Notes under the pieces: generated by a model
What the model was told of the DNA's origin: nothing
What the model saw: the letters and a program-made list of their open reading frames with translations, nothing else
Databases searched by the model: none
IMG/VR virus record: IMGVR_UViG_3300021962_000030
Location: 90,287-154,286 of that record
Length of the DNA: 64,000 nt
Source: a virus
Direction: 5' to 3' (one strand)
Position numbers and translations under genes: made by a program
Part shown: piece after piece, positions 30,040 to 42,868 of the stretch
Position numbering within the stretch: the stretch's first letter is position 1
Layout of the letters: every line of letters starts with the position of its first letter

Positions 30040-30047
30040 AATTACAT

Positions 30048-30368: not shown

Positions 30369-30390
30369 GAGGTCTCCTTCATCTACTAAT

Positions 30391-30429: not shown

Positions 30430-30445
30430 GACACTTATTCAACTG

Positions 30446-30670: not shown

Positions 30671-30672
30671 AA

Positions 30673-31050: not shown

Positions 31051-31052
31051 AA

Positions 31053-31265
31053 TTAATACCTCTTTTTTATTCCTTTAAGGTCATGTGAACATGGGTGACA
31101 ATAATAAGAATACCCATCACGAAAATGCTTCACAACCTCATAATTCTCAGTGTTTAAGAGTTTGTCCACTCCACACCTTTTACAAACTCTAGTCGTTGGA
31201 ATTGTCCTTCCTAGACTTCTTGAGTTTTTTATAAAGTTTTTTAATTTCCTGATAAGCTTGGTCAC
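31053..31265 (-). CDS. Small zinc-finger protein, up to 70 aa
   Basis: Contains CKRCGVDKLL (CxxC) and YYCHPC (CxxC) 28 residues apart, the layout of a zinc ribbon or HNH-like knuckle, with a basic N-terminus. The only standard start in frame is the GTG at 31265, which lies 77 bases inside the upstream gene; the true start is uncertain and may be non-ATG near GGAAGG (about 31200). Could be a degraded HNH endonuclease or a stand-alone zinc ribbon. Confidence 0.5.
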   Translation of the reverse strand: MTKLIRKLKNFIKNSRSLGRTIPTTRVCKRCGVDKLLNTENYEVVKHFRDGYSYYCHPCSHDLKGIKKRY

Positions 31266-31362
31266 TTGTAATTTTGTCCCCTAATTCCAAAGCAACAATA
31301 ATCTCCACACGGTCGCCAAAATAGGCCAGATTTCTTTCAAACTTTGAAAGATCTTCGTACAT
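31189..31362 (-). CDS. Small conserved helical protein, 57 aa
   Basis: ATG at 31362 preceded by GGAGGT nine bases upstream. MYEDLSKFERNLAYFGDRVE then DQAYQEIKKLYKKLKKSRKD: basic helical C-terminus. Resembles a cyanophage family starting MYEDLSKFER (recalled). Driven by the TTGACA promoter at 31385-31414. Confidence 0.75.
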   Translation of the reverse strand: MYEDLSKFERNLAYFGDRVEIIVALELGDKITSDQAYQEIKKLYKKLKKSRKDNSND

Positions 31363-31384
31363 AATGTCTTAACCTCCTACTTTA

Positions 31385-31414
31385 ATCATAGTAAAGGTTC
31401 CTGCTTTTTGTCAA
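31385..31414 (-). promoter_or_regulatory. Sigma70 promoter TTGACA-18-TATGAT
   Basis: Consensus -35 TTGACA (31414-31409) and -10 TATGAT (31390-31385), 18-base spacer, 23 bases upstream of the 57-aa gene. The -35 lies inside the 3' end of the 68-aa gene. Confidence 0.8.
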
Positions 31415-31592
31415 GACGTGCTTGCAGTCTATTTACATCAGATCTGAGTTGATCATTCTCATTCATAAGAAATGAGACCTTCTTATCAAGTTCCATGATC
31501 CAATCTACAATACTGTAACTAACCTCATCAGAATTGCGATTTCGAATATCATACTTTTCCAGGATGCCCTTCCACTTCTTATCTAAACTCAT
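31386..31592 (-). CDS. Coiled-coil protein, 68 aa
   Basis: MSLDKKWKGILEKYDIRNRN at 31592 (ATGA overlap with the upstream stop). The C-terminal half is a heptad coiled coil (VSFLMNENDQLRSDVNRLQA). Probably oligomeric; function unknown. Confidence 0.72.
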   Translation of the reverse strand: MSLDKKWKGILEKYDIRNRNSDEVSYSIVDWIMELDKKVSFLMNENDQLRSDVNRLQARLDKKQEPLL

Positions 31593-31825
31593 AGTTTTCC
31601 TCCGACTGTTCCATCATTCAGAACTCTACTGTTTTCTTCACCCCACCCCTCTTGTCTACCTTTGAGGTAGAAGCGAGCGCCATCAATACATCCTTGCTCA
31701 TCTAAAGCAGTTACTAACTCTTCTCCATCTTTTGTTGCACTGTGCCACAAACCATACTTAGTTTCATAGACGCGAAAGCAATCATCAATCCAATTGACTT
31801 CGGCAATCTCCGGATGTTCAGACAT
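31589..31825 (-). CDS. Hypothetical protein, 78 aa
   Basis: ATG at 31825 (MSEHPEIAEVNWIDDCFRVY), one base after the previous TGA; a TTG upstream was rejected. Beta strands with KYGLWHSATKDGEELVTAL; acidic. Unassigned. Confidence 0.7.
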   Translation of the reverse strand: MSEHPEIAEVNWIDDCFRVYETKYGLWHSATKDGEELVTALDEQGCIDGARFYLKGRQEGWGEENSRVLNDGTVGGKL

Positions 31826-31826
31826 A

Positions 31827-31958
31827 TCAAAGATCCTCAAGACGTGCTTTATTCTCCAAGCAAGTCTGCCTGTATCTGTTAAGTGCTTCTAGGAATTCGG
31901 GTGTCTCCACCCACTCCCAAACATCACCATTCTTTGTTGTATGTGTCTTGGTTTCCAT
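31827..31958 (-). CDS. Small hypothetical protein, 43 aa
   Basis: ATG at 31958, TGA at 31827. METKTHTTKNGDVWEWVETP then EFLEALNRYRQTCLENKARL. Strand pair plus helix. Coupled to the next gene. Confidence 0.65.
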   Translation of the reverse strand: METKTHTTKNGDVWEWVETPEFLEALNRYRQTCLENKARLEDL

Positions 31959-31960
31959 AA

Positions 31961-32098
31961 TCATTTAATCAAATTAGTTAATAGTGCGGAAAAGTTTGCC
32001 TTTCCCTTCATCAGCATAGCACAGATGATCAGAATGTCAAACAATACAAAGGATAGAAATATGATTGACAGTTGAATGTGATTATTTTTTTGCATCAT
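31961..32098 (-). CDS. Small membrane protein, 45 aa
   Basis: ATG at 32098 (or 32095). MMQKNNHIQLSIIFLSFVLF starts a span continuing DILIICAMLM, then a basic tail. Overlaps the upstream gene by 17 bases. Function unknown. Confidence 0.6.
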   Translation of the reverse strand: MMQKNNHIQLSIIFLSFVLFDILIICAMLMKGKANFSALLTNLIK

Positions 32099-32309
32099 AA
32101 TGTATTTCAATGACGAGTGGTGGTTTATCGTTCCAATGTCTAATTGCATTGGCAATAATGAATGCATTGGTGGCCAGATACGCGAATAAGATCACGGTTC
32201 GTATCACCGCAACATTATCAGATTCTTTACTGCAGGAAGATGCTTTTTCTCCAAGTGCCTTGCACCAGAGTCTCCAGATTAACCGAAGCTTCGATTTAAG
32301 TCGTACCAT
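32082..32309 (-). CDS. Small membrane protein, 75 aa
   Basis: MVRLKSKLRLIWRLWCKALG at 32309: strongly basic N-terminus, then one membrane span (VIRTVILFAYLATNAFIIAN). The positive-inside rule puts the N-terminus in the cytoplasm. Overlaps the upstream gene by 31 bases. Confidence 0.65.
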   Translation of the reverse strand: MVRLKSKLRLIWRLWCKALGEKASSCSKESDNVAVIRTVILFAYLATNAFIIANAIRHWNDKPPLVIEIHYDAKK

Positions 32310-32443
32310 CGATTTCCAAGTAAAACGCGATTCATAATTCTATGCAAAAGACTGGGCCTAACCTTTTTCATGATGTGAATTCCATCTCCACAATCATCAT
32401 TCAAAGACCAGTACCCAACGTATAACTCAGACTCGGACTTCAT
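32279..32443 (-). CDS. GYWSL-type small protein A, 54 aa
   Basis: ATG at 32443, TAA at 32279. MKSESELYVGYWSLNDDCGD... ending RPSLLHRIMNRVLLGNRWYD. It shares the order GYWSL-DD-G-RPS-LG-W-D-N with the 68-aa gene at 32895-33101, so the two look like diverged paralogues on either side of the CpeS-like gene. Function unknown. Confidence 0.65.
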   Translation of the reverse strand: MKSESELYVGYWSLNDDCGDGIHIMKKVRPSLLHRIMNRVLLGNRWYDLNRSFG

Positions 32444-32885
32444 AATACTGTCCAACTAAGAATACCTGACCAGTAGAGTCTTTCTTACCAACAGTTTGGC
32501 GAAGACGAATTGTGTCCCCATCAAGAAGTCTAATCTCTTCCCTAAACTTCATACCACTATATGCTGTGTTGAGCACAACGCAGTCATCATCAATCATATG
32601 AATATTACACTCTGTCTCATCTTTGGTCATATAACCAATATCACGCTTAAGAACCTCACCATCAGTCTCTGTGATCATTTCGCCTTCAGAGATCAACTTT
32701 TCTGTATGAACATCGGAAGTTTTCCAAGCAAGTCTGGAACGCACAACATCTCCAGTATCGCTCAGAATTTCAACTTCAAGTTTTGATCGAGAGTTGTCAA
32801 TAACCCCACTTTCAGTATACAAATATCTGCGATGAGAAACCCACTCTCCAGCAGTTCTTCTCAGAAAATTCCTAAAATCACTCAT
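32427..32885 (-). CDS. CpeS/CpcS-like phycobiliprotein lyase, 152 aa
   Basis: Lipocalin-like CpeS-family pattern: an N-terminal FLRRTAGEWVSHRRY, SKLEVEILS, KRDIGYM, VVLNTAYSG, FREEIRLLDGDTIRLRQTV and a terminal YYEVRV. Length matches phage CpeS-like proteins (about 150). These lyases attach or carry open-chain bilins for phycoerythrin; phage versions are known auxiliary genes in cyanomyoviruses. The assignment is by pattern; a distant bilin-binding or unrelated lipocalin fold cannot be excluded. Confidence 0.68.
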   Translation of the reverse strand: MSDFRNFLRRTAGEWVSHRRYLYTESGVIDNSRSKLEVEILSDTGDVVRSRLAWKTSDVHTEKLISEGEMITETDGEVLKRDIGYMTKDETECNIHMIDDDCVVLNTAYSGMKFREEIRLLDGDTIRLRQTVGKKDSTGQVFLVGQYYEVRV

Positions 32886-32894
32886 ACATTTGCC

Positions 32895-33101
32895 TCAATT
32901 AGAATCAAACCACACATGACCAAACATAACATGCATCACAACTCTTGTAATCCATGATGGTCTATTTTGCCTCACGACGCAGTATTTTGTTCCCCCGTCA
33001 TCATGGTGCAGGCTCCAATATCCAGCTGGTCTTGCAAATCTTATTTTTGCTGGATGCCCCGTTTTATCCCCATGAAGGATCTTTTCAAGTATCGCCTTCA
33101 T
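32895..33101 (-). CDS. GYWSL-type small protein B, 68 aa
   Basis: ATG at 33101 (MKAILEKILHGDKTGHPAKI); an upstream TTG is less likely. The C-terminal half (PAGYWSLHHDDGG... RPSWITRVVMHVMFGHVWFD) parallels the 54-aa gene. Overlaps the upstream gene by 17 bases. Confidence 0.65.
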   Translation of the reverse strand: MKAILEKILHGDKTGHPAKIRFARPAGYWSLHHDDGGTKYCVVRQNRPSWITRVVMHVMFGHVWFDSN

Positions 33102-33291
33102 CTCCCCCAAATCCAAGTGCTCTTACCTTTTGAACATCTATAATAAGTTGTTGCTTTTGCTCATCAAACTGAACACCATCTCCCTTATCAAGGAGTGATG
33201 CCAATCCAACGGCAATACAATATTCACATACCTTCCAACCAAAAGCAGATCCCAAAATAAATGACAAAATTACATAAACTGGTGTGGGCAT
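33085..33291 (-). CDS. Small membrane protein, 68 aa
   Basis: MPTPVYVILSFILGSAFGWK at 33291: N-terminal membrane span, then an amphipathic tail (FDEQKQQLIIDVQKVRALGF). Shape is like small spanin or anchor proteins but no motif supports that. Confidence 0.62.
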   Translation of the reverse strand: MPTPVYVILSFILGSAFGWKVCEYCIAVGLASLLDKGDGVQFDEQKQQLIIDVQKVRALGFGGDEGDT

Positions 33292-33293
33292 AA

Positions 33294-33605
33294 TTACCTC
33301 ATTACACTAAAAGGATTTCTATCTGGATATGCATAAAATTGAACATAACGCGATAATCTATCCAATTTTGCGGGATCCATCAACATAGATGCTGGGACCG
33401 CGTTTAATTGTTTGTTGTATTTATGCATCCACGTTTTTAGTCTACTCAAAAGAACCGTCTCACCATCACTTGTGTTTTTGTAGATGTGATGGAGATCATA
33501 ATACAATTGAATAACCTTGCTCTCATTGCATATCATGCTCACGGAGATACTTAACTCTGTGGCAATTGTTCTAATGTCTTTAAAGAATAATTCTGATTGG
33601 GTCAT
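33294..33605 (-). CDS. Hypothetical helical protein, 103 aa
   Basis: ATG at 33605 (MTQSELFFKDIRTIATELSI), overlapping the upstream TGA (ATGA). All-helical appearance (VIQLYYDLHHIYKNTSDGET; LSRLKTWMHKYNKQL). No domain known. Confidence 0.7.
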   Translation of the reverse strand: MTQSELFFKDIRTIATELSISVSMICNESKVIQLYYDLHHIYKNTSDGETVLLSRLKTWMHKYNKQLNAVPASMLMDPAKLDRLSRYVQFYAYPDRNPFSVMR

Positions 33606-33733
33606 CTTATACAAATTTTAACATTTTTTGCGCCATTTTCCTTGACGTAACTCTCCCACCGAATGGCATCTATAAGTTCAAAGAAGGTCGCTGATTGCTC
33701 AGAATACCCCTTTTTCTTTGGTTTCGTGTACAT
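33602..33733 (-). CDS. Small conserved basic protein, 43 aa
   Basis: ATG at 33733, TGA at 33602. MYTKPKKKGYSEQSATFFEL IDAIRWESYVKENGAKNVKI: pattern 'GYSEQSA.F..I.DA..WE.YV...G.KN' appears in other cyanophages (recalled). ATGA coupling to the next gene. Confidence 0.7.
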   Translation of the reverse strand: MYTKPKKKGYSEQSATFFELIDAIRWESYVKENGAKNVKICIR

Positions 33734-33747
33734 AACAACGTATCGCA

Positions 33748-33825
33748 TCAAAAGAAACTCCAAATCAAAAAGAAACCAAGAATTAAATTAACTGCGATCC
33801 AGACCCTCAGGTGTCTATCACTCAT
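33748..33825 (-). CDS. Very small membrane peptide, 25 aa
   Basis: ATG at 33825, overlapping the end of the upstream gene (AATGAGTGA). MSDRHLRVWIAVNLILGFFL then IWSFF: charged head plus single span, typical of phage micropeptides. Confidence 0.45.
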   Translation of the reverse strand: MSDRHLRVWIAVNLILGFFLIWSFF

Positions 33826-33991
33826 TATACTGCTCCATACACTGCAAGTAACCTGCTTCAAATGCAGATTTGAGCCATATCTTCATCGTTTTGTAGTCGC
33901 GGGTGTCAACAGAATGCTCATAATCATCCCAGAAACGCTCCGATCTAAATGCAAATCCTTCCAATTCCTCAAACCAAGCATCAAAATCCAT
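33818..33991 (-). CDS. Small hypothetical protein, 57 aa
   Basis: ATG at 33991 overlaps the upstream TAA (TAATG). MDFDAWFEELEGFAFRSERF then MKIWLKSAFEAGYLQCMEQY. Acidic aromatic helices. Unassigned. Confidence 0.7.
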   Translation of the reverse strand: MDFDAWFEELEGFAFRSERFWDDYEHSVDTRDYKTMKIWLKSAFEAGYLQCMEQYNE

Positions 33992-34218
33992 TATCCGAAC
34001 CCCCCGGATTTCTTTCGGTGTTTGTTTTTCTTTTCTGGTTTTAGTGGTTCCACATCTACAACTTGCACATAACCTTTCAGATTATCTGGAATCATGCGCC
34101 AAAGTCCATACAAGTGCTCATAATCTTCAACCATCACCTTTTGTCCATCATTAAGAACAACTTTGTACGTGTGTCTGATGTAGGGTTCGGAAGAGGTTGC
34201 TGAAAATTGAGTTGTCAT
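33991..34218 (-). CDS. Hypothetical protein, 75 aa
   Basis: MTTQFSATSSEPYIRHTYKV at 34218. SH3-like beta pattern (YKVVLNDGQKVMVEDYEHL) then a basic tail (KPEKKNKHRKKSGGFG) that suggests nucleic-acid contact. Couples to both neighbours. Confidence 0.7.
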   Translation of the reverse strand: MTTQFSATSSEPYIRHTYKVVLNDGQKVMVEDYEHLYGLWRMIPDNLKGYVQVVDVEPLKPEKKNKHRKKSGGFG

Positions 34219-34466
34219 GACTTGAAGAAATTATCTAAATCTGAGAAGAGTTTACGTTGATCCTTTTTAGTTTTTGATTCAACTGCAGTAAAGTCACCAC
34301 CATCCTTAATGGAAATCTTGTAATTACTTACAGAAGTTCTCTCCAAGTATTTTTGGAGATGCTCTTTACATTGAAAGAAGCACCTCTTTGCAAGTTTCTT
34401 TCCATCATACTCTTCCAGTCTAATTGGCATAGATTCGTATGGAAAGTAATCGTCAGAGTTTTTCAT
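34215..34466 (-). CDS. Hypothetical basic protein, 83 aa
   Basis: MKNSDDYFPYESMPIRLEEY at 34466. LAKRCFFQCKEHLQKYLERT helix with two Cys and a Lys-rich C-terminus. ATGA overlaps on both sides. Confidence 0.7.
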   Translation of the reverse strand: MKNSDDYFPYESMPIRLEEYDGKKLAKRCFFQCKEHLQKYLERTSVSNYKISIKDGGDFTAVESKTKKDQRKLFSDLDNFFKS

Positions 34467-34651
34467 AGTTCAGTATAATCTGATGCAACTTTTTGAATGC
34501 GAATTGTCTGTGTTTTCTCATCCACACTCCATTCTACCACAGTTCCTTCACCCCAACCCAAACTACGAAGTAATTCTTCATGAAGATCAAGAACTAATTC
34601 ACCATTCACTTCACGAACTAGTGAATAATACAATTTGCTATTCGGATTCAT
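34463..34651 (-). CDS. AbrB-like small protein, 62 aa
   Basis: Three consecutive ATG codons (34657, 34654, 34651) follow AGAGGTG; the last has the best spacing. MNPNSKLYYSLVREVNGELV LDLHEELLRSLGWGEGTVVE WSVDE: the 'L..ELL..LGW.EG..V.W' segment is that of SpoVT/AbrB swapped-hairpin antitoxin-like regulators common in cyanophages. It may act as a DNA-binding regulator (inference). Confidence 0.65.
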   Translation of the reverse strand: MNPNSKLYYSLVREVNGELVLDLHEELLRSLGWGEGTVVEWSVDEKTQTIRIQKVASDYTEL

Positions 34652-34901
34652 CATCATCACCTCTGCCTTTTGGCCATGTGTGGCCGCATAGGTCAAAAGA
34701 GAACCCAAGCTTGCCAAGAACAAACAAGAAACTCAAAAGTCTACCATACCCACAACTCATTTGGAGGTATAGTCCACTACCATAAACAGACCAATCAAAT
34801 TCTACTTGAAGAAAGGAGAAATTCCGACCCTTCAATAGGGTCAAGTACCATTCACCACCAAAGTCTTCATTATATCCAAAATCAACAATTTTAAAGTCCA
34901 T
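34638..34901 (-). CDS. Hypothetical protein, 87 aa
   Basis: MDFKIVDFGYNEDFGGEWYL at 34901; beta-rich aromatic sequence with a hydrophobic stretch (LLSFLFVLGKLGFSFDLCGH) and an acidic tail. Overlaps the AbrB-like start. Unassigned. Confidence 0.65.
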   Translation of the reverse strand: MDFKIVDFGYNEDFGGEWYLTLLKGRNFSFLQVEFDWSVYGSGLYLQMSCGYGRLLSFLFVLGKLGFSFDLCGHTWPKGRGDDDESE

Positions 34902-35139
34902 GTGCGCGATAATTTACTGGATTTGTTGTTTCATTAAATGCATTTCTATAATTCACCGGATCAATTGCTTGATTAGGAACTCTTCTATAATTCACATACT
35001 CACTTCGTTCAATTAATTCTGCCTTTATAGCGTTGATGAAATCACTTTCATCCCACGTATTTAGAATTTGCCCCTCCAGACTATTGGAATCCCAATCAAT
35101 AAGTAAACTACCATCGGGATTTTCTGTGACGTTGATCAT
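34891..35139 (-). CDS. Protein with C-terminal PVNYR repeats, 82 aa
   Basis: MINVTENPDGSLLIDWDSNS then WDESDFINAIKAELIERSE and three short repeats (YVNYRRVPNQAID, PVNYRNAFNETTN, PVNYRAHGL). Start follows AAAGGAAATCTCT and the TATAAT box at 35165-35170. Function unknown; the repeats may bind a partner. Confidence 0.7.
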   Translation of the reverse strand: MINVTENPDGSLLIDWDSNSLEGQILNTWDESDFINAIKAELIERSEYVNYRRVPNQAIDPVNYRNAFNETTNPVNYRAHGL

Positions 35140-35164
35140 AGAGATTTCCTTTTGCTACATTCTT

Positions 35165-35206
35165 ATTATACGAAAAAAGGCACACCACCGAAGGGGGGGA
35201 TGTGCC
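35165..35206 (-). terminator. Terminator fused to a TATAAT promoter
   Basis: GGCACA...TGTGCC stem with TTCG loop region and TTTTTT (35206-35173), followed at once by CGTATAAT (TATAAT at 35170-35165). TTCGGT in the hairpin sits 16 bases before the -10 and may serve as -35. Confidence 0.8.
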
Positions 35207-35222
35207 ACTTTATGAACTGTCC

Positions 35223-35519
35223 TCACATATTCATGTGCAGTTGGCCTACATTCAATAGGTCCCAAAACAAAACACTAGAATCTGGATCACTACCCAAATA
35301 CCAATTCCACTCCGTGTAAGTTACTGCCAACCCATGAACACCACGGACAAATTCTATCCATGCTGGGTGTAAAGACTTATTTCTAACATCAAATACATTA
35401 TGAACATTCACCACAGGAACCCATAGACCATGCTCGTCATATTCTCCTGCAGGTGGCGTAGATGCAACCCAAGCGTCATATCTTGCTCTAATATCTGCAA
35501 CAACCTTAGCAAACATCAT
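35223..35519 (-). CDS. Hypothetical protein, 98 aa
   Basis: Start placed at ATG 35519 (MMFAKVVADIRARYDAWVAS), after AAGGTAAAAGGT. The ATG at 35534 lies only six bases after the TATACT -10 box (35540-35545), so it would precede the transcript start. Aromatic C-terminus (TYTEWNWYLGSDPDSSVLFW). Unassigned. Confidence 0.65.
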   Translation of the reverse strand: MMFAKVVADIRARYDAWVASTPPAGEYDEHGLWVPVVNVHNVFDVRNKSLHPAWIEFVRGVHGLAVTYTEWNWYLGSDPDSSVLFWDLLNVGQLHMNM

Positions 35520-35552
35520 ACCTTTTACCTTCATACTAGAGTATATATTGAA

Positions 35553-35795
35553 TCAAAAAATACCTTGTTCTTTAAGATACTGCAGCGACTCTTTCAATCC
35601 ACCAATATGTTTAAACCCAATTGAAACTTGTGGATATTCAGATTCACTTCCAAATTCTGCGCGAAACTGTCTATCACTAAAGTCAATACCCAATTCATAC
35701 TCATGATATTCACCGCCAAGACTAGTCAAAAGCATACGAATACGCTCACATTCCTGGCTGCCATTTGAATATAAAACTACAGTTTCTTCAATCAT
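35553..35795 (-). CDS. Glutaredoxin-like protein with altered active site, 80 aa
   Basis: Start MIEETVVLYSNGSQECERIR at 35795. Thioredoxin-fold glutaredoxin layout: strand, active-site position, helix, a cis-Pro strand (EYPQV, P55) and a C-terminal IGG motif (64-66). The CPxC motif is SQEC, so the first (nucleophilic) Cys is Ser and only C16 remains. Glutaredoxins are frequent in T4-like phages and supply electrons to ribonucleotide reductase; this variant may be inactive in that role or bind instead. Confidence 0.75.
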   Translation of the reverse strand: MIEETVVLYSNGSQECERIRMLLTSLGGEYHEYELGIDFSDRQFRAEFGSESEYPQVSIGFKHIGGLKESLQYLKEQGIF

Positions 35796-36027
35796 TTGAT
35801 TTCTCACAGTGTAAAAAATACTTATATTCGGCAAGAGGGCCGTAGTGCCATTGAATTATATCACATCCTTTGTACTCTCCAACCACCTTAGTGGACTGTT
35901 CTTCAACTGGCGGATTCTGTACCGATCCAATAAAGATCAGTCCTCCGATGAAAACTCCTACAACAAAAACAATAATCCCAACACCCTCCACAAACTCTCT
36001 GAGTGCATGTTTATCATCTTCAGTCAT
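35788..36027 (-). CDS. Membrane protein with VVGEYKGCDIIQWHYG domain, copy 1, 79 aa
   Basis: Start MTEDDKHALREFVEGVGIIV at 36027; one membrane span (GIIVFVVGVFIGGLIFIGSV), then KVVGEYKGCDIIQWHYGPLA and EYKYFL. The C-terminal coding DNA is identical over 62 bases to that of the paralogue at 37814-38068. Overlaps the glutaredoxin start by eight bases. Function unknown. Confidence 0.75.
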   Translation of the reverse strand: MTEDDKHALREFVEGVGIIVFVVGVFIGGLIFIGSVQNPPVEEQSTKVVGEYKGCDIIQWHYGPLAEYKYFLHCEKSND

Positions 36028-36325
36028 AGGTAGATACCAGAAATACTTTGATAGTTTGTCCATCATCTTGTAGTGACACCTGAACGTTAGAACATTCATA
36101 ACGAACATACTCACGTCCATCACTACCAATTACCTCTACACGGGTGACATCAGGATAACTCCTGATGACATCTTTGTGTTCAAGATCATCTTCATCCCAT
36201 GGTTTCTGCCCGAAGGTTTCGCGATCAATTCCAAGAGATTTCAATGCAAGATCCTCATTGAATCCATCATAGGTAGTGTCTAACCAGGGAGCATCATCTT
36301 TGTCAGGTAAATTGTGCTCAGTCAT
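36020..36325 (-). CDS. Hypothetical acidic protein, 101 aa
   Basis: ATG at 36325 (MTEHNLPDKDDAPWLDTTYD) six bases after GAGGGGC; the ATG at 36340 was rejected. Acidic N-half, beta C-half (VRYECSNVQVSLQDDGQTIK). Unassigned. Confidence 0.7.
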   Translation of the reverse strand: MTEHNLPDKDDAPWLDTTYDGFNEDLALKSLGIDRETFGQKPWDEDDLEHKDVIRSYPDVTRVEVIGSDGREYVRYECSNVQVSLQDDGQTIKVFLVSTYD

Positions 36326-36509
36326 CAATTTGCCCCTCATAAGAGTAATTCACATATAGATTGTCTCCACCAATGTTTAGGTGGTACATTTTGCCATCTG
36401 CAAGATAGATTCCCATCCACACAGCACGACCTTCTTCCATGGTTTCAAAGTGAAACATTCTCACATTTTCCAGAACAATTTCGTCTGGATTCTTTATAAA
36501 GTGTGTCAT
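36318..36509 (-). CDS. Hypothetical protein, 63 aa
   Basis: MTHFIKNPDEIVLENVRMFH at 36509, TAATG overlap. Beta strands (GIYLADGKMYHLNIGG). Unassigned. Confidence 0.7.
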   Translation of the reverse strand: MTHFIKNPDEIVLENVRMFHFETMEEGRAVWMGIYLADGKMYHLNIGGDNLYVNYSYEGQIDD

Positions 36510-37003
36510 TATGAATAATTATAATGGACTTGAGTATAAAAGTGAAAGAAACATTTTTTCCCAATTCTACTCAGTATTGGTGGTAGGTATTGAGACCATT
36601 CGCGCAAAAAGTCCTCTTCTGTGTGAAAGTCCAATCCATGACAATGCCACGTGCCAAATTCATCCATAAACTCCCTTACAGCACGATACTCTCTATCGTT
36701 GCCAGGAACTCCATACGGATCTTCTGGACTAAGATCTTTGGCAGTTGGAAGTGCTTGCGTAATCATTAAGCAAACAGTTTGACCCTCTCCAGTTCCATAA
36801 TAACTGGAGGACATGAACATCCAAGGTTCATCAAGACCCTTAATACCGAATCGCATCTCATAATTAGTTTTTCGGTCTGCGGCAATATTTAGAATGTTTG
36901 TGTGACGAACTTCTTCCAATTGTGCAAGGGCATCGTCTCTCTCAATCAATCGTTCAATTCTCTCACCCTCAGGAAGATGCTTCAAAGATTTAATATCAGT
37001 CAT
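36509..37003 (-). CDS. RAVREF-type hypothetical protein, copy 1, 164 aa
   Basis: MTDIKSLKHLPEGERIERLI at 37003. Residues about 55-164 (WMFMSSSYYGTGEGQTVCLM ... YRAVREFMDEFGTWHCHGL ... FYTQVHYNYS) align collinearly with the C-terminal two thirds of the 38075-38674 gene, so they are paralogues. Helical N-terminus. Function unknown. Confidence 0.75.
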   Translation of the reverse strand: MTDIKSLKHLPEGERIERLIERDDALAQLEEVRHTNILNIAADRKTNYEMRFGIKGLDEPWMFMSSSYYGTGEGQTVCLMITQALPTAKDLSPEDPYGVPGNDREYRAVREFMDEFGTWHCHGLDFHTEEDFLREWSQYLPPILSRIGKKCFFHFYTQVHYNYS

Positions 37004-37178
37004 AAGGCAATTGCACGTCTTTGTGCCATACTCTGGTGAATACTAACCATGGTTCAACTTGGTGTGACATTTCTGCCATCCAGTGCTGACCATTCTCATC
37101 AATTGCATCCAAATAATGAATGCGACTTTGGGGATCAATCGTGCGGGTGACTGATGTAAATTTTACTCTCTCAATCAT
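36996..37178 (-). CDS. Small hypothetical protein, 60 aa
   Basis: MIERVKFTSVTRTIDPQSRI HYLDAIDENGQHWMAEM...: an all-beta small protein whose 'IDPQ.RIHYLDAIDENG.HWMAEMSH' pattern seems recurrent in cyanophages (recalled). ATGA coupling with the upstream gene. Confidence 0.7.
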   Translation of the reverse strand: MIERVKFTSVTRTIDPQSRIHYLDAIDENGQHWMAEMSHQVEPWLVFTRVWHKDVQLPYD

Positions 37179-37402
37179 ACTCCGTCTCCAGTTTCTTGCC
37201 AGTCAGTCATGTATTCATGTTGGTGTGCCTGCCACCTCAAAAGTGTAGGAATACAAGAAGGTTGAATTCCAATTTGCTCCAAAACTTCTTCAAACCAATC
37301 TGCTGTAGCATCAATCACTGCTTGTGCTTCTGCCTCCTCATTGGGTGGTGCTGTTTGAAGGGCATTTTCAATCATCTTGAGAAGTTTAGTTTTGTCAGTC
37401 AT
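37175..37402 (-). CDS. Protein with MTDKTKLLKMIENALQ head, copy 1, 75 aa
   Basis: MTDKTKLLKMIENALQTAPP at 37402. The first 20-odd codons are identical in DNA (59 bases) to the start of the 38075-38674 gene; the rest (AVIDATADWFEEVLEQIGIQ) is unrelated to it. Helical. Function unknown. Confidence 0.75.
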   Translation of the reverse strand: MTDKTKLLKMIENALQTAPPNEEAEAQAVIDATADWFEEVLEQIGIQPSCIPTLLRWQAHQHEYMTDWQETGDGV

Positions 37403-37641
37403 CAGTCCTGTCCGCTAAAGTTCCATTTACTATTAAAGAATACTCTCGTCCAAAATCTAATCCATCGATTTGGAATAGGAAAATTATCACTTTTATAAAA
37501 TGAGATTACCAGTTGTTCCTGCCCAAACAAATCACACTTACAAATCACTTCTGGTTGATTAAAATAAGAAGCATTATAAGGATATGGTAGATTATCCCCC
37601 AAAGGTTTTACTGGTTGTCCTTCGTTGATTTCATTGTTCAT
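37402..37641 (-). CDS. Hypothetical protein, 79 aa
   Basis: ATG at 37641 (MNNEINEGQPVKPLGDNLPY) overlaps the upstream TGA by 11 bases; ATGs at 37653 and 37659 lie further inside the upstream gene. Beta-rich aromatic C-terminus (RWIRFWTRVFFNSKWNF). Unassigned. Confidence 0.65.
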   Translation of the reverse strand: MNNEINEGQPVKPLGDNLPYPYNASYFNQPEVICKCDLFGQEQLVISFYKSDNFPIPNRWIRFWTRVFFNSKWNFSGQD

Positions 37642-37786
37642 CAGTTTTCTCATAAGCATCCTGAACCATCTCTGCGATTTCCATCACTTCTGCTTTGAAC
37701 TCTGGTTTTGCGGTCTTTGAAACCTCATCATAGAACAGAGTGAGGGCAGTTGTCAATAGAATCAGTTGGCGTTTTGTGAAATCCAT
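37631..37786 (-). CDS. Small helical protein, 51 aa
   Basis: ATG at 37786, TGA at 37631. MDFTKRQLILLTTALTLFYD EVSKTAKPEFKAEVMEIAEM: two amphipathic helices. Function unknown. Confidence 0.68.
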   Translation of the reverse strand: MDFTKRQLILLTTALTLFYDEVSKTAKPEFKAEVMEIAEMVQDAYEKTDEQ

Positions 37787-37813
37787 TTTAGTTGTTTTCC
37801 TGATAAATGGCGT

Positions 37814-38068
37814 TTATTCGGAATCCTGATATTTTGGGCAATATAGGAAATACTTGTATTCGGCAAGAGGGCCGTAGTGCCATTGAATTATATCACATCC
37901 TTTGTACTCTCCAACCACTTTGGTGGTCTGTTCTTTAACTGGCACAGTCTTAGTGCCTGATGCCCAAACGATATAGGAAAGCACTAAACAAAGACCAATA
38001 AAAACAATACTAGCACTCCCAAAACCACGCAGAAACTCTTTCAAAAATTCTTTATCATCTTGTGTCAT
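37814..38068 (-). CDS. Membrane protein with VVGEYKGCDIIQWHYG domain, copy 2, 84 aa
   Basis: MTQDDKEFLKEFLRGFGSAS at 38068; membrane span (SIVFIGLCLVLSYIVW), then the same C-terminal domain as copy 1. The shared 62 bases are identical (37857-37918 and 35825-35886) while the N-terminal halves diverge, which suggests recent duplication or gene conversion. Confidence 0.75.
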   Translation of the reverse strand: MTQDDKEFLKEFLRGFGSASIVFIGLCLVLSYIVWASGTKTVPVKEQTTKVVGEYKGCDIIQWHYGPLAEYKYFLYCPKYQDSE

Positions 38069-38074
38069 AGTAAT

Positions 38075-38674
38075 TTATGAGAAATTGTAATGAACACGGG
38101 TGTAGAAGTCTTTGAAGCAACTCCGATTGAGAAGCTTCATCATCGCTGGAGGAATGTAGTATGAATATTCACTAAAGAAATCTTCTTTAGTGAGAAATCT
38201 GAGACCATGAAGATACCAAGTGCCAAACTGTTGGTGAAACTCTCTCACAGCACGATATTGTTTGGAGTTGATAGGCACATACTTATGCTCTTCATCAAAG
38301 TCATCACCATAAGGAGTTGCTTGAGTCATCATAATACACATAGTTTGATCTTCGCCTGTGCCGAAGTATTCACTAACCATATACACCCAGTATTCATCAA
38401 CTGGGAATACATCACGCTGATACTTCTCCTCGTAATCTTTCATACAAGCATCAGCGACCAGTTGGAAGTTTTCTTTCTTCTTTGCTTCCAACTCGGCACG
38501 TAGTTCTACTTTTTCAGTTTCAGCAAGTGCTTTGAGTGCATAATACTTATCAATAGCACCACAAGCAGTTTGAATCACTTTGTTTTTTGCTTCACGACGC
38601 TCTGCTTCTTCATTAGGTGGTGCTGTTTGAAGGGCATTTTCAATCATCTTGAGAAGTTTAGTTTTGTCAGTCAT
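38075..38674 (-). CDS. Chimeric RAVREF-type protein, copy 2, 199 aa
   Basis: Start MTDKTKLLKMIENALQTAPP at 38674 (ATGA with the upstream gene). Its head is identical to the 75-aa gene at 37175 and its C-terminal two thirds (YWVYMVSEYFGTGEDQTMCI ... YRAVREFHQQFGTWYLHGL ... FYTRVHYNFS) match the 164-aa gene at 36509. The middle is a coiled coil (ALAETEKVELRAELEAKKKE). It appears to be a fusion of modules found separately 1.3-2 kb away. Function unknown. Confidence 0.75.
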   Translation of the reverse strand: MTDKTKLLKMIENALQTAPPNEEAERREAKNKVIQTACGAIDKYYALKALAETEKVELRAELEAKKKENFQLVADACMKDYEEKYQRDVFPVDEYWVYMVSEYFGTGEDQTMCIMMTQATPYGDDFDEEHKYVPINSKQYRAVREFHQQFGTWYLHGLRFLTKEDFFSEYSYYIPPAMMKLLNRSCFKDFYTRVHYNFS

Positions 38675-38865
38675 ACATCCCACTCCCTTGCTTCCCAGTC
38701 CATCAAACACATTTCACCTTGCTCCTTGTCTGTGTAGTTTTCATAAGCATACTGACGGCACTCTTCTTCTGTGCCTTCAAACAGCAAATCCCACATTTTG
38801 TGGTCTCCATCATAGGTAATACGATAAAGTCCCCATTCATCATAACAATCAGGAAAGATTGGCAT
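38671..38865 (-). CDS. Small hypothetical protein, 64 aa
   Basis: MPIFPDCYDEWGLYRITYDG at 38865. Acidic, Trp/Tyr-rich with helix TEEECRQYAYENYTDKEQGE. ATGA coupling to the chimeric gene. Confidence 0.7.
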   Translation of the reverse strand: MPIFPDCYDEWGLYRITYDGDHKMWDLLFEGTEEECRQYAYENYTDKEQGEMCLMDWEAREWDV

Positions 38866-39154
38866 ACTTTGCCTCCACTTCTTTCACACGATCCATAAAA
38901 CTATCATCACCATGGTCACCTGAATACAGATAATCAATGTGCCTCATAATCTCTGCCATCTTCCTCATCTTGGGAATTTGTGCTTTCATATACTCAATGG
39001 ATTCATCAGAATATTTGGGATAGTAATCAACACCATAGTATCCAGTATCATTACGCTCCTTACCATTGTTGAGGATCTCTTCCTCCAACTCATCAGCAAA
39101 CTGATAAACTTTATAGTAATCGTATCCACAGTCAGTAAAGTGTCCGCCGCTCAT
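38849..39154 (-). CDS. Conserved phage hypothetical protein (MSGGHF), 101 aa
   Basis: MSGGHFTDCGYDYYKVYQFA at 39154, then ADELEEEILNNGKER and a helical region IEYMKAQIPKMRKMAEIMRH ending with IDYLYSGDHGDDSFMDRV. The 'MSGGHF..' opening with a following helical acidic body is a common phage/prophage family. Function unknown. Confidence 0.8.
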   Translation of the reverse strand: MSGGHFTDCGYDYYKVYQFADELEEEILNNGKERNDTGYYGVDYYPKYSDESIEYMKAQIPKMRKMAEIMRHIDYLYSGDHGDDSFMDRVKEVEAKYANLS

Positions 39155-39363
39155 TTGCTGTCCTCCAGTTCATCAAGTTTCTCATTCATAATACCAGTCA
39201 TGTCAAGTGTGCGTGGGTCAATACCAGCATCAGTGCAATCCATGATAAACTCCATGAAGGCACCTAGAATAAGACAGGCACGGCGTTTGTCATGCTCTGT
39301 GATGGTAGTGTGAGGCATGGCAACATAATTCACCACATGATCGTAGAGTTCGTCGTAAGTCAT
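39151..39363 (-). CDS. Small helical protein, 70 aa
   Basis: MTYDELYDHVVNYVAMPHTT at 39363 (ATGA with the upstream gene). All-helical: RRACLILGAFMEFIMDCTDA. Unassigned. Confidence 0.7.
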   Translation of the reverse strand: MTYDELYDHVVNYVAMPHTTITEHDKRRACLILGAFMEFIMDCTDAGIDPRTLDMTGIMNEKLDELEDSK

Positions 39364-39545
39364 TTGAATTGCTCTAATACATCAATGAAATGTTGGATAC
39401 AATCTTTGGGAATGTGGATGGTTTGGTATCCAGGACCATTACCATCCTCTACACTCACAGTGCCACATTCATCAGCAGTGAAATCAAAACTCCAACCATC
39501 TTCTTCTTGTTCAATTTTGATGTATTTGGTGATCGTGTAGGTCAT
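39360..39545 (-). CDS. Small hypothetical protein, 61 aa
   Basis: ATG at 39545 (MTYTITKYIKIEQEEDGWSF) just after AAAGGACCG; the in-frame ATG at 39560 is too close to the -10-like TATGAT (about 39567). Beta sandwich-like sequence then helix (DCIQHFIDVLEQFK). Unassigned. Confidence 0.68.
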   Translation of the reverse strand: MTYTITKYIKIEQEEDGWSFDFTADECGTVSVEDGNGPGYQTIHIPKDCIQHFIDVLEQFK

Positions 39546-39575
39546 CGGTCCTTTGCTCATACAGTCATCATAAGG

Positions 39576-39602
39576 TAAAAACCACCCCCAGAAGGAGGTG
39601 GT
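39576..39602 (-). terminator. Terminator followed by TATGAT
   Basis: ACCACCTCC-TTCT-GGGGGTGGT stem and TTTT on the minus strand, after the 62-aa gene. CTTATGATG follows directly as the promoter box for the next operon. Confidence 0.75.
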
Positions 39603-39622
39603 GTGTCAGTTCTTCAACTGGA

Positions 39623-39811
39623 TCAGGATCGGCCGCGCAAATTCCAAGGATCAACACCAGGAGGAATCGGATCATCCCACGTGTCTTCTTCAAGTTCAAT
39701 AATTTGCTCTACAAGATCCATAATAGTTGGTTGCTTGTCCATGGGCCGAGCAAATACTGTATCCCACCACTCAGAGATGACAAAGTATAGTTCTTTTTCG
39801 CGATCAGTCAT
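39623..39811 (-). CDS. Small hypothetical protein, 62 aa
   Basis: MTDREKELYFVISEWWDTVF at 39811; helical acidic middle (IMDLVEQIIELEEDTWDD), Pro-rich end. Last gene before the terminator. Unassigned. Confidence 0.7.
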   Translation of the reverse strand: MTDREKELYFVISEWWDTVFARPMDKQPTIMDLVEQIIELEEDTWDDPIPPGVDPWNLRGRS

Positions 39812-40139
39812 CTAACTCAACATCCTCCAAAAGATCCGAAAGTCTTTCCAATTCCTCCAAGTCCATCGGAATAACTTTTTCTTCACCCCGATCAATTCTA
39901 TCACACATGTCCATCAAGTATTCAAGAAACTCTTTAGGTAGAGTTTCATCCATATTGATGCTTCCCCAGAACCATTCATAACATTCTTGGTATGGGTCAT
40001 CGGTTGGAAGTAAGGCATAACCATCATAGTTTCCACTAACCAGATCACGCCACATTTTGAAGTTATTCCACATCTCCCGCCAACCAGTTTGAAGGCAGTG
40101 TCCAAAGTAATATTCAAACCAATTCAATTTTGTTTTCAT
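39804..40139 (-). CDS. Hypothetical acidic protein, 111 aa
   Basis: MKTKLNWFEYYFGHCLQTGW at 40139, Trp/Tyr-rich first half, acidic helices at the end (LEELERLSDLLEDVELDD). ATGA coupling with the lipoprotein gene upstream. Confidence 0.7.
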   Translation of the reverse strand: MKTKLNWFEYYFGHCLQTGWREMWNNFKMWRDLVSGNYDGYALLPTDDPYQECYEWFWGSINMDETLPKEFLEYLMDMCDRIDRGEEKVIPMDLEELERLSDLLEDVELDD

Positions 40140-40339
40140 CGGACTTTATATGGTGAATTTGGACATTCTGGATGAAAAACACCCTCAATATAACAAGCTG
40201 GATATGGACCACTCTCCTTTTTTCTTGGCATCGCCATCTGAACTGCTCTGACAGGATTATCTACGACCCTGTTAAACTCTTCAAATGGGACATCCTGTAA
40301 ACATCCCAGCAGAATACATGCGATGGGAAGTATAATCAT
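40136..40339 (-). CDS. Predicted lipoprotein, 67 aa
   Basis: MIILPIACILLGCLQDVPFE: a short hydrophobic signal ending in LLGC, a good lipobox with Cys at residue 13. The rest is small, with three more Cys. Lipoproteins of this size resemble o-spanins (Rz1-like) used to fuse membranes at lysis, and a tiny membrane protein gene overlaps its start, but a spanin role is only inference. Confidence 0.65.
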   Translation of the reverse strand: MIILPIACILLGCLQDVPFEEFNRVVDNPVRAVQMAMPRKKESGPYPACYIEGVFHPECPNSPYKVR

Positions 40340-40437
40340 TATTTCCGCAGTCCTTTAATAAGTTTAATAGCAATATCGGTCACATAATATCCGATAAAAA
40401 ACCAGATAATAAAAGTGGCAACGTATGAAAGAATCAT
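40339..40437 (-). CDS. Very small membrane protein, 32 aa
   Basis: ATG at 40437, TAA at 40339 overlapping the lipoprotein start (TAATG). MILSYVATFIIWFFIGYYVT then DIAIKLIKGLRK: one span and a basic amphipathic tail. Confidence 0.6.
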   Translation of the reverse strand: MILSYVATFIIWFFIGYYVTDIAIKLIKGLRK

Positions 40438-40985
40438 GATTCATCTCCAAAATTATGACTACCGGGATGTTCGACTTCATTCAGGGGATCATGCTTTATA
40501 AGAGGCATAACATCGCGCATAATTTCCTCAGTCATCGCTTCAACCTCTTCATCAGTATAATTTGGATTATCTGGATTTAAAGCACGTGAAAGTTGTGCCT
40601 TCAAGTCAAGAACAACCTCACTCAACTCCTTTACACGGGTCTCTGCTGCCAGAGCACGTTCTTCCACGGGAAGAAGAACTTCTACAATACGCTCACCCAA
40701 GTCCTCATCAAGAACAATATCGTTATTCTCAGCAACCTTACGCATATCTTCGACTCTGCGCATCTCATTAAATGCACATTGCGCTGCTCCGTCCATGATA
40801 GTTTCGTCCGCAAATCCAACTGCGCGAAGAAAACTATTGAACAGATTGAAATACTGATGAATATTCAGATCTGTCACAGGAGATTGAATCTCAACTGTTT
40901 GATTATCGACTAGATCTTTATAGATGGAGTTATACTCAGAACCTGCTGTATGATACACAATCTTAACATAGCCATCAGAAATCAT
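40434..40985 (-). CDS. Hypothetical protein, 183 aa
   Basis: Start MISDGYVKIVYHTAGSEYNS at 40985 with GAGG upstream; the ATG at 41000 is less likely. N-terminal alpha/beta part, helical middle (FNEMRRVEDMRKVAENNDIV), coiled coil (VEERALAAETRVKELSEVVL) and an acidic tail. No known family. Confidence 0.7.
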   Translation of the reverse strand: MISDGYVKIVYHTAGSEYNSIYKDLVDNQTVEIQSPVTDLNIHQYFNLFNSFLRAVGFADETIMDGAAQCAFNEMRRVEDMRKVAENNDIVLDEDLGERIVEVLLPVEERALAAETRVKELSEVVLDLKAQLSRALNPDNPNYTDEEVEAMTEEIMRDVMPLIKHDPLNEVEHPGSHNFGDES

Positions 40986-41010
40986 ACTCTGTTTCCTCAT
41001 TCATATATTC

Positions 41011-41040
41011 AGTATAGCATCAACAGACGCCATATGGCAA
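41011..41040 (-). promoter_or_regulatory. Sigma70 promoter TTGCCA-18-TATACT
   Basis: -35 TTGCCA (41040-41035), 18-base spacer, -10 TATACT (41016-41011), 26 bases before the 183-aa gene. Confidence 0.75.
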
Positions 41041-41068
41041 GTGCCAGGACACTTTGATGATTGTCACA

Positions 41069-41296
41069 TCATGGTAATATTCCGAAAACAGGATCATCGC
41101 CATCATCTATTTTACACTCTGTAAATCTGGATCGAATGCTTAAATCAGATTCAATCCAAAAATTAACACTTGCCTTTGCGTGAGATCCAGGTCTTTCAAT
41201 CCCAACCCAATAATGTTGAGAACCTAATTTTTCAATTCTTACATCAACATTTTTAAAATACAGTTTGCCAAAATCATTTGCTTCGGAAAAGGCCAT
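41069..41296 (-). CDS. Hypothetical protein, 75 aa
   Basis: ATG at 41296 (MAFSEANDFGKLYFKNVDVR) after AGGAG. Beta-rich (VRIEKLGSQHYWVGIERPG; SVNFWIESDLSIRSRF). Unassigned. Confidence 0.68.
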   Translation of the reverse strand: MAFSEANDFGKLYFKNVDVRIEKLGSQHYWVGIERPGSHAKASVNFWIESDLSIRSRFTECKIDDGDDPVFGILP

Positions 41297-41311
41297 TTGC
41301 AACTCCTGCGG

Positions 41312-41449
41312 TTAATCGTCATCGCGACCATGCAATCTTCCAATTAAATAACCAAGATACAATCCGCCAACGAAAAACACATAAAGATAAAAAACTTGTG
41401 TTAAAACTTTTAAAGTTTCTGTAAACAAGAACTCAAATTCACTTTGCAT
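41312..41449 (-). CDS. Small membrane protein, 45 aa
   Basis: ATG at 41449, TAA at 41312. MQSEFEFLFTETLKVLTQVF leads into YLYVFFVGGLYLGYLIGRLH, one membrane span, and an acidic end. Confidence 0.62.
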   Translation of the reverse strand: MQSEFEFLFTETLKVLTQVFYLYVFFVGGLYLGYLIGRLHGRDDD

Positions 41450-41452
41450 AAT

Positions 41453-41770
41453 TTAATCACGTGTTCTCCAATCATCTGTATCTTCACGCTTGAACCAATC
41501 CACAATATCATCAGCACCATTAAATTGTGTGCGATGATTTCTTGGATCTGGATCACCCAAATCCATAATATTCATGAAATTGTCCAAACTATCTTCGTGC
41601 ATATTTGGATTAGATGCTCTTCGCCTTGCTTGACGAAGCATTGTTCCTGCCGATCTATTTGACTTTGCAAGTTTCTCTGCCCAAATCATGTCTTCCAATC
41701 CAACCGGTTCACCCGTGGCAATTCGGTTGCAAATTTCTTCTAATCTCAGACGATATTGTGTTGAAAGCAT
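41453..41770 (-). CDS. Conserved cyanophage protein, 105 aa
   Basis: MLSTQYRLRLEEICNRIATG at 41770. 'MIWAEKLAKSNRSAGTMLRQARRRASNPNMHEDSLDNF' followed by LGDPDPRNHR is a pattern recalled from several T4-like cyanophages. Basic helical centre; function unknown. Confidence 0.78.
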   Translation of the reverse strand: MLSTQYRLRLEEICNRIATGEPVGLEDMIWAEKLAKSNRSAGTMLRQARRRASNPNMHEDSLDNFMNIMDLGDPDPRNHRTQFNGADDIVDWFKREDTDDWRTRD

Positions 41771-41790
41771 TTGTATTGTAGCCTCTTGAA

Positions 41791-42000
41791 TTATTTTGAT
41801 TGAGTATCGTGCAGCATCGATTCTAGCTCATTAAGTCTAGAAAATTCTGCATATGCCTTTTCTGACCGGGCAGAAAGAATACTATGAATATCACTCAGAA
41901 TTATATTGTTGTCAACATAATCGTCCAAGTATTTGTCCAACGCCTCCTGTAGAAAACGTCTTCGATGCCACTCTTTGGAGTATGGTTTATAATGATTCAT
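41791..42000 (-). CDS. Conserved small helical protein, 69 aa
   Basis: ATG at 42000 (MNHYKPYSKEWHRRRFLQEA) then LDKYLDDYVDNNIILSDIHS and RLNELESMLHD. Resembles a cyanophage family beginning 'PYS.EWHR.R.L.EA' (recalled). Confidence 0.75.
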   Translation of the reverse strand: MNHYKPYSKEWHRRRFLQEALDKYLDDYVDNNIILSDIHSILSARSEKAYAEFSRLNELESMLHDTQSK

Positions 42001-42001
42001 T

Positions 42002-42253
42002 TTAGTCGTCACACACTCCATGCATACTAAGCATTTCTTCTGCTATTTTCTGATATTTGCGATCCAAATGCCACTTAACAATGGGATTTTTTGGATTGTG
42101 GCGAATATGCCAATTTACAATGAACCACATTCGTTGGACATTGAGTTTAATCATCGCAACAACAAGCAGAAAAAATTCTGCAATAGAGTTGTCCGTCACA
42201 ATGAAATAACCTAGAACAGCAAAAATTGCTGTCCAAATGTATAATTGAATCAT
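42002..42253 (-). CDS. Membrane protein, 83 aa
   Basis: MIQLYIWTAIFAVLGYFIVT at 42253, one or two spans (AEFFLLVVAMIKLNV), then a basic cytoplasmic tail (NPKNPIVKWHLDRKYQKIAE). Function unknown. Confidence 0.68.
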   Translation of the reverse strand: MIQLYIWTAIFAVLGYFIVTDNSIAEFFLLVVAMIKLNVQRMWFIVNWHIRHNPKNPIVKWHLDRKYQKIAEEMLSMHGVCDD

Positions 42254-42414
42254 GAGTTCCGTTTTCCTCTGAGATACTCCAAAAGTTCATTCTTGATTAT
42301 GTCCAACTCCCTCTCACACGCATTTTCCTTCGCCATACTTCGAATTCTTGAATGAACTTCGCAAAGATCTTCAAACATTAAATCGCAGGCACTTAGATAC
42401 GCTTCGTCAGTCAT
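42250..42414 (-). CDS. Small helical protein, 54 aa
   Basis: ATG at 42414 (MTDEAYLSACDLMFEDLCEV) overlaps the upstream gene by eight bases. Charged helices (AKENACERELDIIKNELLEY). Unassigned. Confidence 0.65.
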   Translation of the reverse strand: MTDEAYLSACDLMFEDLCEVHSRIRSMAKENACERELDIIKNELLEYLRGKRNS

Positions 42415-42607
42415 TTTTTTTAGAATCCCCTTCAAGTAGGTTACAATGTGGCATTGATTCCTGTAATGTAATAACAATATCCATTTTTTGGGTCACGGTC
42501 ATATTTTCAATAGACCATACACGATTAGTCATTTTTTGAGCATCAACACATGAGATGCCGGTTATGTAAGCAAATAATAAAGCGTGAATCATGAGATTAG
42601 ATATCAT
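42407..42607 (-). CDS. Secreted small protein, 66 aa
   Basis: ATG at 42607 or 42592 (MIHALLFAYITGISCVDAQK): hydrophobic signal-like N-terminus ending VDA-Q. The exported part is short with conserved-looking helix (TVTQKMDIVITLQESMPHC). Unassigned. Confidence 0.6.
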   Translation of the reverse strand: MISNLMIHALLFAYITGISCVDAQKMTNRVWSIENMTVTQKMDIVITLQESMPHCNLLEGDSKKND

Positions 42608-42616
42608 TCATAGTAT

Positions 42617-42868
42617 TTAGTCCTCAACACCATTTGCATCGCGCATAAACTCCATGCAGGAAACAAATTCCTCCCAGGATTTTTTAGGAACCTCACCCTT
42701 CTCATAAGGGATTCCCGATAATATTGCGCAGACACGATTTGAGTTAAATCGAACCATACGAACTTCTGAAGTGGGATCAACATATTCAAGACCACCCTTG
42801 GAGGTCTGTGCTGTCATGTCACCACCGAACAGAATTGAAATTGAAGACGCTAATGCCAGTAGTTTCAT
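42617..42868 (-). CDS. Secreted small protein, 83 aa
   Basis: MKLLALASSISILFGGDMTA at 42868, a signal peptide, then mature part with two Cys and helix (PKKSWEEFVSCMEFMRDANG). ATGA coupling with the 65-aa gene. Likely periplasmic. Confidence 0.65.
   Translation of the reverse strand: MKLLALASSISILFGGDMTAQTSKGGLEYVDPTSEVRMVRFNSNRVCAILSGIPYEKGEVPKKSWEEFVSCMEFMRDANGVED

Follow-up and report, generated by a model that had tools for sequence, protein, structure and literature searches.

Two exact repeats and a recurrent start word suggest exchange of single genes and gene heads in an ORFanage-like block of a T4-like cyanophage

How do small phage genes that have otherwise diverged come to share tracts of exactly identical DNA? 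The question is raised by a minus-strand array of small, mostly overlapping genes in the final 64 kb (hereafter the window) of IMG/VR virus record IMGVR_UViG_3300021962_000030, which totals 154,286 bases. A preliminary description of this DNA had reported a 62-bp identity linking two membrane-protein genes of 79 and 84 amino acids (aa) and a 59-bp identity linking the heads, or beginnings, of a 75-aa and a 199-aa gene. Both are indeed maximal exact repeats and lie where they had been placed:

35825..35886, minus strand: 62-bp exact repeat in the 79-aa gene, likely of the donor type (repeat search, family comparison)
37857..37918, minus strand: 62-bp exact repeat in the 84-aa gene, likely the recipient (repeat search, family comparison)
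37344..37402, minus strand: 59-bp exact repeat, donor-type copy at the head of the 75-aa gene (repeat search)
38616..38674, minus strand: 59-bp exact repeat, putatively acquired copy at the head of the 199-aa gene (repeat search, head-body matrix)

We favour, at a probability of roughly 0.7, the reading that the array is a block of the type known as the 'ORFanage' of Synechococcus phage S-PM2, in which genes and heads are exchanged singly at very short shared sequences, as in both repeats. Thirty order-2 Markov copies of the window each had a longest exact direct repeat of 14 to 21 bp, and since none exceeded 21 bp the two repeats are not due to chance. Among the repeats listed, the 28-43 kb interval holds no other exact repeat of at least 22 bp, and longer ones elsewhere in the window fall mostly within repetitive tail-like genes. 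Ungapped extension takes the 62-bp repeat to 129 nucleotides (nt) at 84% identity and the 59-bp repeat to 74 nt at 96%. The 59-bp identity begins precisely at both ATG codons, where the flanking bases differ, and includes 19 of 19 third codon positions.

The window derives from a T4-like cyanophage, judging from baseplate- and tail-like proteins recognised by eye and from its S-PM2 homologues. DNA segments of the repeat region match S-PM2 at 74-91% identity in a differing order, and the matched sequences lie inside or adjoining S-PM2p017-p050, which makes the region a relative of the shuffled ORFanage. The excerpted text of Puxty et al. (2015; PMC4503421) gives that name to S-PM2p017-p050 and describes these genes as shuffled in metagenomes, as dispensable in laboratory growth (known for S-PM2) and as lost on laboratory passage with a gain in fitness. 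Relatives were gathered with five query proteins, giving 175 loci, or 110 after removal of redundancy, and a motif search of these 110 with eight head and seven body references yielded a head-body matrix. The elements of the 59-bp event are as follows:

37175..37402, minus strand: 75-aa gene, native family of the head (S-PM2p023 match, relatives)
38075..38674, minus strand: 199-aa gene, putative chimera of the 75-aa gene's head and an S-PM2p049-family body (homology, head-body matrix)
38601..38615, minus strand: 3' edge of the replaced head, GAA GAA GCA GAG (EEAE), short homology of both parental families

S-PM2p023 matches the 75-aa protein at 91% over residues 1-67, and S-PM2p049 matches the 199-aa protein at 80% over residues 34-199, without the head. 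Relatives of the 75-aa protein are encoded in 33 viral-contig loci, and the 199-aa query found 37, comprising 10 head-only matches and 27 body matches, all 27 of which start at residue 13 or later (two are cut by a contig end). Across the 110 loci the head was matched 22 times, 20 times with a 75-type body, once at a contig end and once, in the window, with a 199-type body; conversely, only the window's copy among 21 open reading frames (ORFs) with a 199-type body carries the 59-bp head. Members of the 199 family mostly bear other heads, and their native heads differ from the 59-bp one. Based on this distribution, the head is native to the 75-aa family and new on the 199-aa gene, whose own head appears to have been replaced. 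The synteny check proposed in the preliminary description thus gives a polarity, the head being ancestral to the 75-aa family and not to the 199-aa family, and its inference of recent recombination and a chimeric gene is borne out.

The joint in the window reads AAT GAA GAA GCA GAG CGT CGT, where S-PM2p049 has GAA GAG GCA GAG CGT CGT and the 75-aa gene AAT GAG GAG GCA GAA, a comparison indicating that an EEAE-coding stretch is common to both parents. Both parental genes also begin with the same eight-base word, ATGACTGA. The window's 199-aa gene lacks ~26 codons that are found in one relative (L003) between AAC AAA G and ATC AAA G, a loss flanked by CAAAG microhomology. In the predicted structure of the 199-aa protein (mean predicted local distance difference test score, pLDDT, 73.8), which comprises a helix at 2-16, a long helix at 23-85 and a small alpha/beta part, the head-body joint sits just before the long helix, a position that is suggestive only; the model had no match in PDB at E <= 0.001.

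The second repeat lies within a membrane-protein family of 72 members, represented in the window by two genes:

37814..38068, minus strand: 84-aa membrane protein, probable mosaic in which N part, 62-bp tract and tail are each nearest to a different relative (family comparison)
35788..36027, minus strand: 79-aa membrane protein, whose tract matches its own subtype, GEYKGC (family comparison)

Identity between these genes rises from 56% ahead of the tract to 100% inside it, whereas the tract reaches at best 94% (median 70%) against the 70 other members, and a tract of at least 97% combined with an N part below 75% occurs in just 3 of 2556 pairs within the family. The N part of the 84-aa gene is nearest to L068 (87%), whose tract reads GTYKEC, and its tail to L074 (95%), a member of the other subtype. 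With mosaic ends and a tract of the 79-aa subtype, the 84-aa gene is the likelier recipient of what was probably an exchange between two diverged membrane-protein genes.

The preliminary description had further proposed that the 199-aa gene carries the C-terminal domain of a neighbouring gene through recent fusion:

36509..37003, minus strand: 164-aa gene, distantly paralogous to the 199-aa body (44% identity; protein comparison)

A common C-terminal domain is confirmed, but at 44% amino-acid identity recent sharing is not, and we rejected a recent fusion since the 199 body forms its own family; the domain reflects old paralogy, apart from the recent event. None of 19 candidate stretches in viral contigs was a relative of the 164-aa protein, and PHROGs and Pfam yielded no function for any of the five proteins concerned.

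Heads are found on several bodies among the relatives, the HEEM head on four and the MPWV and PYPD heads on three each, and one such head occurs close to the repeats:

36020..36325, minus strand: 101-aa gene, whose 22-aa head (MTEHNLPDKDDAPWLDTTYDGF) occurs on other bodies in relatives (relatives, head-body matrix)

Counting PYPD and HEEM, which resemble each other, as one unit, the matrix contains 33 ORFs that chain at least two heads, all in the order LLNS, EHNL, MPWV, GKLR, PYPD/HEEM, body. This fixed order points to gain or loss of units along the chain rather than to free shuffling. The motif-based matrix was preferred to a list of 456 genes with in-frame fusions, obtained by loose filtering, which alternative starts made noisy. 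The two repeats are samples of pervasive shuffling and not an isolated event.

What do the exchanged genes have in common? ATGACTGA combines a start codon with TGA in both other frames, and it opens five genes in or adjoining the region of the repeats (79, 101, 164, 75 and 199 aa) as well as two further along the array:

38667..38674, minus strand: ATGACTGA start word of the 199-aa gene, in which the TGA at word positions 2-4 ends the upstream 64-aa gene
37395..37402, minus strand: ATGACTGA start word of the 75-aa gene
36996..37003, minus strand: ATGACTGA start word of the 164-aa gene
36318..36325, minus strand: ATGACTGA start word of the 101-aa gene
36020..36027, minus strand: ATGACTGA start word of the 79-aa gene
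39804..39811, minus strand: ATGACTGA start word of a 62-aa gene
42407..42414, minus strand: ATGACTGA start word of the gene at 42250-42414

Nine of the 13 gene-strand copies in this genome fall within 36,020-42,414 (6.4 kb), and the word starts 7 of 57 genes at 28-43 kb and 0 of 85 elsewhere in the window. A dinucleotide-shuffle test of the whole window gave a modest excess (12 words against a mean of 5.3, with 0 of 100 shuffles reaching 12). The same locus-specificity is seen in the deposited annotation of S-PM2, where ATGACTGA starts 10 of 34 ORFanage genes versus 1 of 163 other plus-strand genes examined, and with our own gene finder (14/49 versus 2/185, or 12/24 versus 2/28 when matched for overlap). 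It starts 1 of 92 genes in T4 (1-50 kb) and 0 of 72 and 1 of 67 in two stretches of S-RSM4. An order-6 Markov model expects 280 words where 341 occur, a mild excess because the word's own sub-words are equally confined to starts; the informative tests are rather the strand contrast (341 versus 10) and the S-PM2 comparison. Taking one gene per family, 145 of 969 families start with ATGACT, and 80 of these (55%) continue with GA, versus 12% after other second codons and 10% after other threonine codons (70 families), the last figure showing that the signal belongs to the DNA rather than to the amino acids. Part of the GA excess is forced by 8-nt overlaps, but it persists at 4-nt overlaps, in which the second stop is unused (39/90 versus 4/27). 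Among the matches listed, a literature search combining the word with phage terms returned no description of it, nor did one on overlapping starts or microhomology.

The commonest overlap between neighbouring genes is 4 nt (805 of 2539 pairs), followed by 8 nt (264), and the two TGA stops of ATGACTGA are used near equally, in 104 and 97 distinct family pairs. Most families with at least two ATGACTGA starts (28 of 36) occur with both overlaps, and in-frame joints at the word are also found (for example in L013 and L025). If crossing over took place at the word, the upstream gene should keep its overlap class with new partners. The class does track the upstream family, in which 120 of 172 pairs agree and none of 1000 shuffles scores as high, but does not track the downstream one (168 of 356; 855 of 1000 shuffles), and one random pair per family gives 0.71 versus 0.49 shuffled upstream and 0.38 versus 0.50 downstream, although the families are related to one another and the pair counts incompletely independent. 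Where the same downstream gene follows different upstream genes (356 genome pairs), the ATG marks a drop in identity from 0.7-1.0 to 0.3-0.5; where the same upstream gene precedes different downstream genes (205 pairs), the drop follows ATGA or, for 8-nt overlaps, the eighth base.

We therefore propose ATGACTGA as a joining word and infer recombination through it. The 59-bp repeat would record a recent exchange within the lineage, in which a copy of the 75-aa head overwrote the native head of the 199 family between the start word and the EEAE-coding stretch, with ~26 codons also deleted between the two CAAAG sequences, and the 62-bp repeat a similar exchange between the diverged membrane-protein genes. 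The word would serve as crossover microhomology, its two out-of-frame stops would allow a gene to be placed behind an upstream one in either of the other phases, and the joining itself would be done by the phage's own recombination or replication; a common start word may in this way let genes join almost any neighbour. A bolder version, which we hold only tentatively and at somewhat less than even odds, makes ATGACTGA a universal joining word and the block a recombinase-free, integron-like cassette array that also makes new chained-head proteins. If true, the word would supply 8 bp of microhomology for gene swaps among unrelated genes, an incoming gene would stop and restart translation behind any neighbour in two of the three phases, and the third phase would yield in-frame head fusions. 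A start word that can be counted, mutated and traced makes a mechanism of small-gene reshuffling testable, and the heads show that chimeric proteins have recently arisen in a lytic phage, from parent families that are both identified.

Several points weigh against exchange at the word. The 84-aa gene starts with ATGACACAA and not with ATGACTGA, and both overlap classes occur in 14 of 29 upstream families, so that the class is kept above chance but not always, as if some joints had formed elsewhere and been stopped by an in-frame TGA. Gene calls in the relatives come from an ATG-only finder and are approximate. Selection for intact, translationally coupled genes would likewise place boundaries at stop-start overlaps, but does not by itself account for a single word or its confinement to the block. 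The sole laboratory event known here, the deletion in S-PM2d (L177, about 5798), joined S-PM2 position 5798 to 15339, 13 nt after the p017 start, with a 1-nt overlap and no ATGACTGA; it shows that homology-poor joining does happen in the ORFanage locus. Finally, a degenerate search of the viral contigs found the head-body junction of the 199-aa gene nowhere else; the chimera thus lacks the backing of a second assembly, and the junction is either private and young or an artefact. We nevertheless consider an assembly artefact of this metagenomic contig hardly probable. The junction lies ~15 nt beyond the exact repeat and has its own synonymous differences (CCT AAT GAA GAA versus CCC AAT GAG GAG). 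A mis-join within the repeat could therefore exchange the upstream flanks, but it could not create such a joint; several relatives also have the 64-aa gene ahead of the 199 family, and the repeats are shorter than the usual long k-mers or reads.

Tandem duplication of a whole module (199+84 and 75...164...79) followed by divergence, with the repeats as best-conserved remnants, would explain why the two sides agree in order and strand, each with a head, a body of the 199/164 type and a membrane gene. It is very improbable as a source of the recent identities given 44% identity for 199/164 and 56% for the membrane genes before the tract, set against repeats that are 100% identical including third positions; moreover, apart from this one case the head belongs with the 75-aa body, and the loci examined showed no genome in which a duplicated module had diverged evenly throughout. 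The layout may still go back to an old duplication of the 199/164 and 84/79 pairs. Selection at the protein level or at translation starts, with ATGACTGA as a regulatory start, e.g. for a RegA-like repressor, fits the recurrence of heads on many bodies and the confinement of the word to one, perhaps co-regulated, gene block. RegA binding occurs near start codons, and a phage regulator binding AUGACUGA RNA would favour this explanation. We regard it as unlikely, as all 19 third positions of the repeat are identical versus ~91-93% DNA identity to the S-PM2 and L040 heads, TGA at both offsets serves as a stop in near-equal numbers, and no longer common motif surrounds the word. It is quite improbable that mobile elements drive the shuffling, be they homing endonucleases or promoter-early-stem-loop (PeSL) cassettes. 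A GIY-YIG/NUMOD1 homing-type endonuclease gene does lie at 21209-22015 on the plus strand, opposite to most window genes, the relatives' loci contain a family of 19 members with a representative that carries NUMOD3 (L055:8877-9869), and homing-type endonucleases have been suggested as agents of cyanophage shuffling in the excerpted text of PMC3037559. However, no endonuclease was found among the 50 proteins scanned at 28972-42868, most gene pairs at 36-39.6 kb overlap and leave no room for a promoter-stem-loop, and PeSL cassettes were rejected for the S-PM2 ORFanage in the excerpted account of Puxty 2015 (PMC4503421).

Other features of the window include a weak glutaredoxin match directly downstream of the 79-aa gene (35553-35795, minus strand) and a ribose-phosphate pyrophosphokinase (PRPP synthetase) gene adjoining the shuffled block (43338-44294, minus strand). 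Of the 50 proteins scanned at 28972-42868, one resembles CpeS (bilin lyase family), and there is a single weak match to a MazE-like antitoxin. At 50240-51372, exact repeats up to 68 bp long and spaced by ~400 nt point to three paralogous units in tandem, dispersed exact repeats of 22-31 bp occupy a small-gene stretch upstream of the endonuclease gene (15702-21013), and in-frame tandem repeats, exact up to 112 bp, occur in tail-like proteins at 60386-60640 and 63797-63921.

How does this block compare with known systems? PeSL-mediated shuffling in hyperplastic regions of T4-like phages, reportedly described by Arbiol in 2010 and Comeau in 2014, likewise involves cassette-like exchange of small genes in a T4-type genome, but the joints here are 4- or 8-nt stop-start overlaps and not intergenic promoter-stem-loops. 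No early promoter with a stem-loop was found between the exchanged genes, which overlap at their joints, and the strongest terminator-like site nearby (39581-39602) lies outside the repeats. The closest likeness is to the S-PM2 ORFanage, with homologues of p023, p049 and others, small overlapping genes on one strand, the same ATGACTGA starts and an order that is rarely conserved (among 60 families with at least 10 members, the median number of neighbour families is 10 upstream and 9 downstream). The excerpted account of that locus (PMC4503421) leaves its mechanism unclear, suggesting illegitimate recombination or mispackaging, and differs in that head swapping and the start word are described here and not in that text. 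As in integron-type site-specific cassettes, a common sequence stands at the cassette joints, and a Pfam search (E up to 0.01) found no integron-like recombinase among the 50 block proteins. Breakpoints at gene edges are also typical of boundary mosaicism by illegitimate recombination, but those found here have a common sequence. Similarly, breakpoints lie near gene boundaries in mycobacteriophages, for which neighbouring genes sharing a short C-terminal stretch have also been described (PMC3029335, as excerpted), whereas one short word recurs here. Lastly, near-identical N-terminal parts on unrelated bodies resemble the recent shuffling of phage protein fragments reported by Smug et al. (2023; PMC10684548), whose clear recent cases, in the excerpted text, are receptor-binding proteins, endolysins and replication proteins, while those described here are uncharacterised proteins of 50-200 aa with heads chained in a fixed order.

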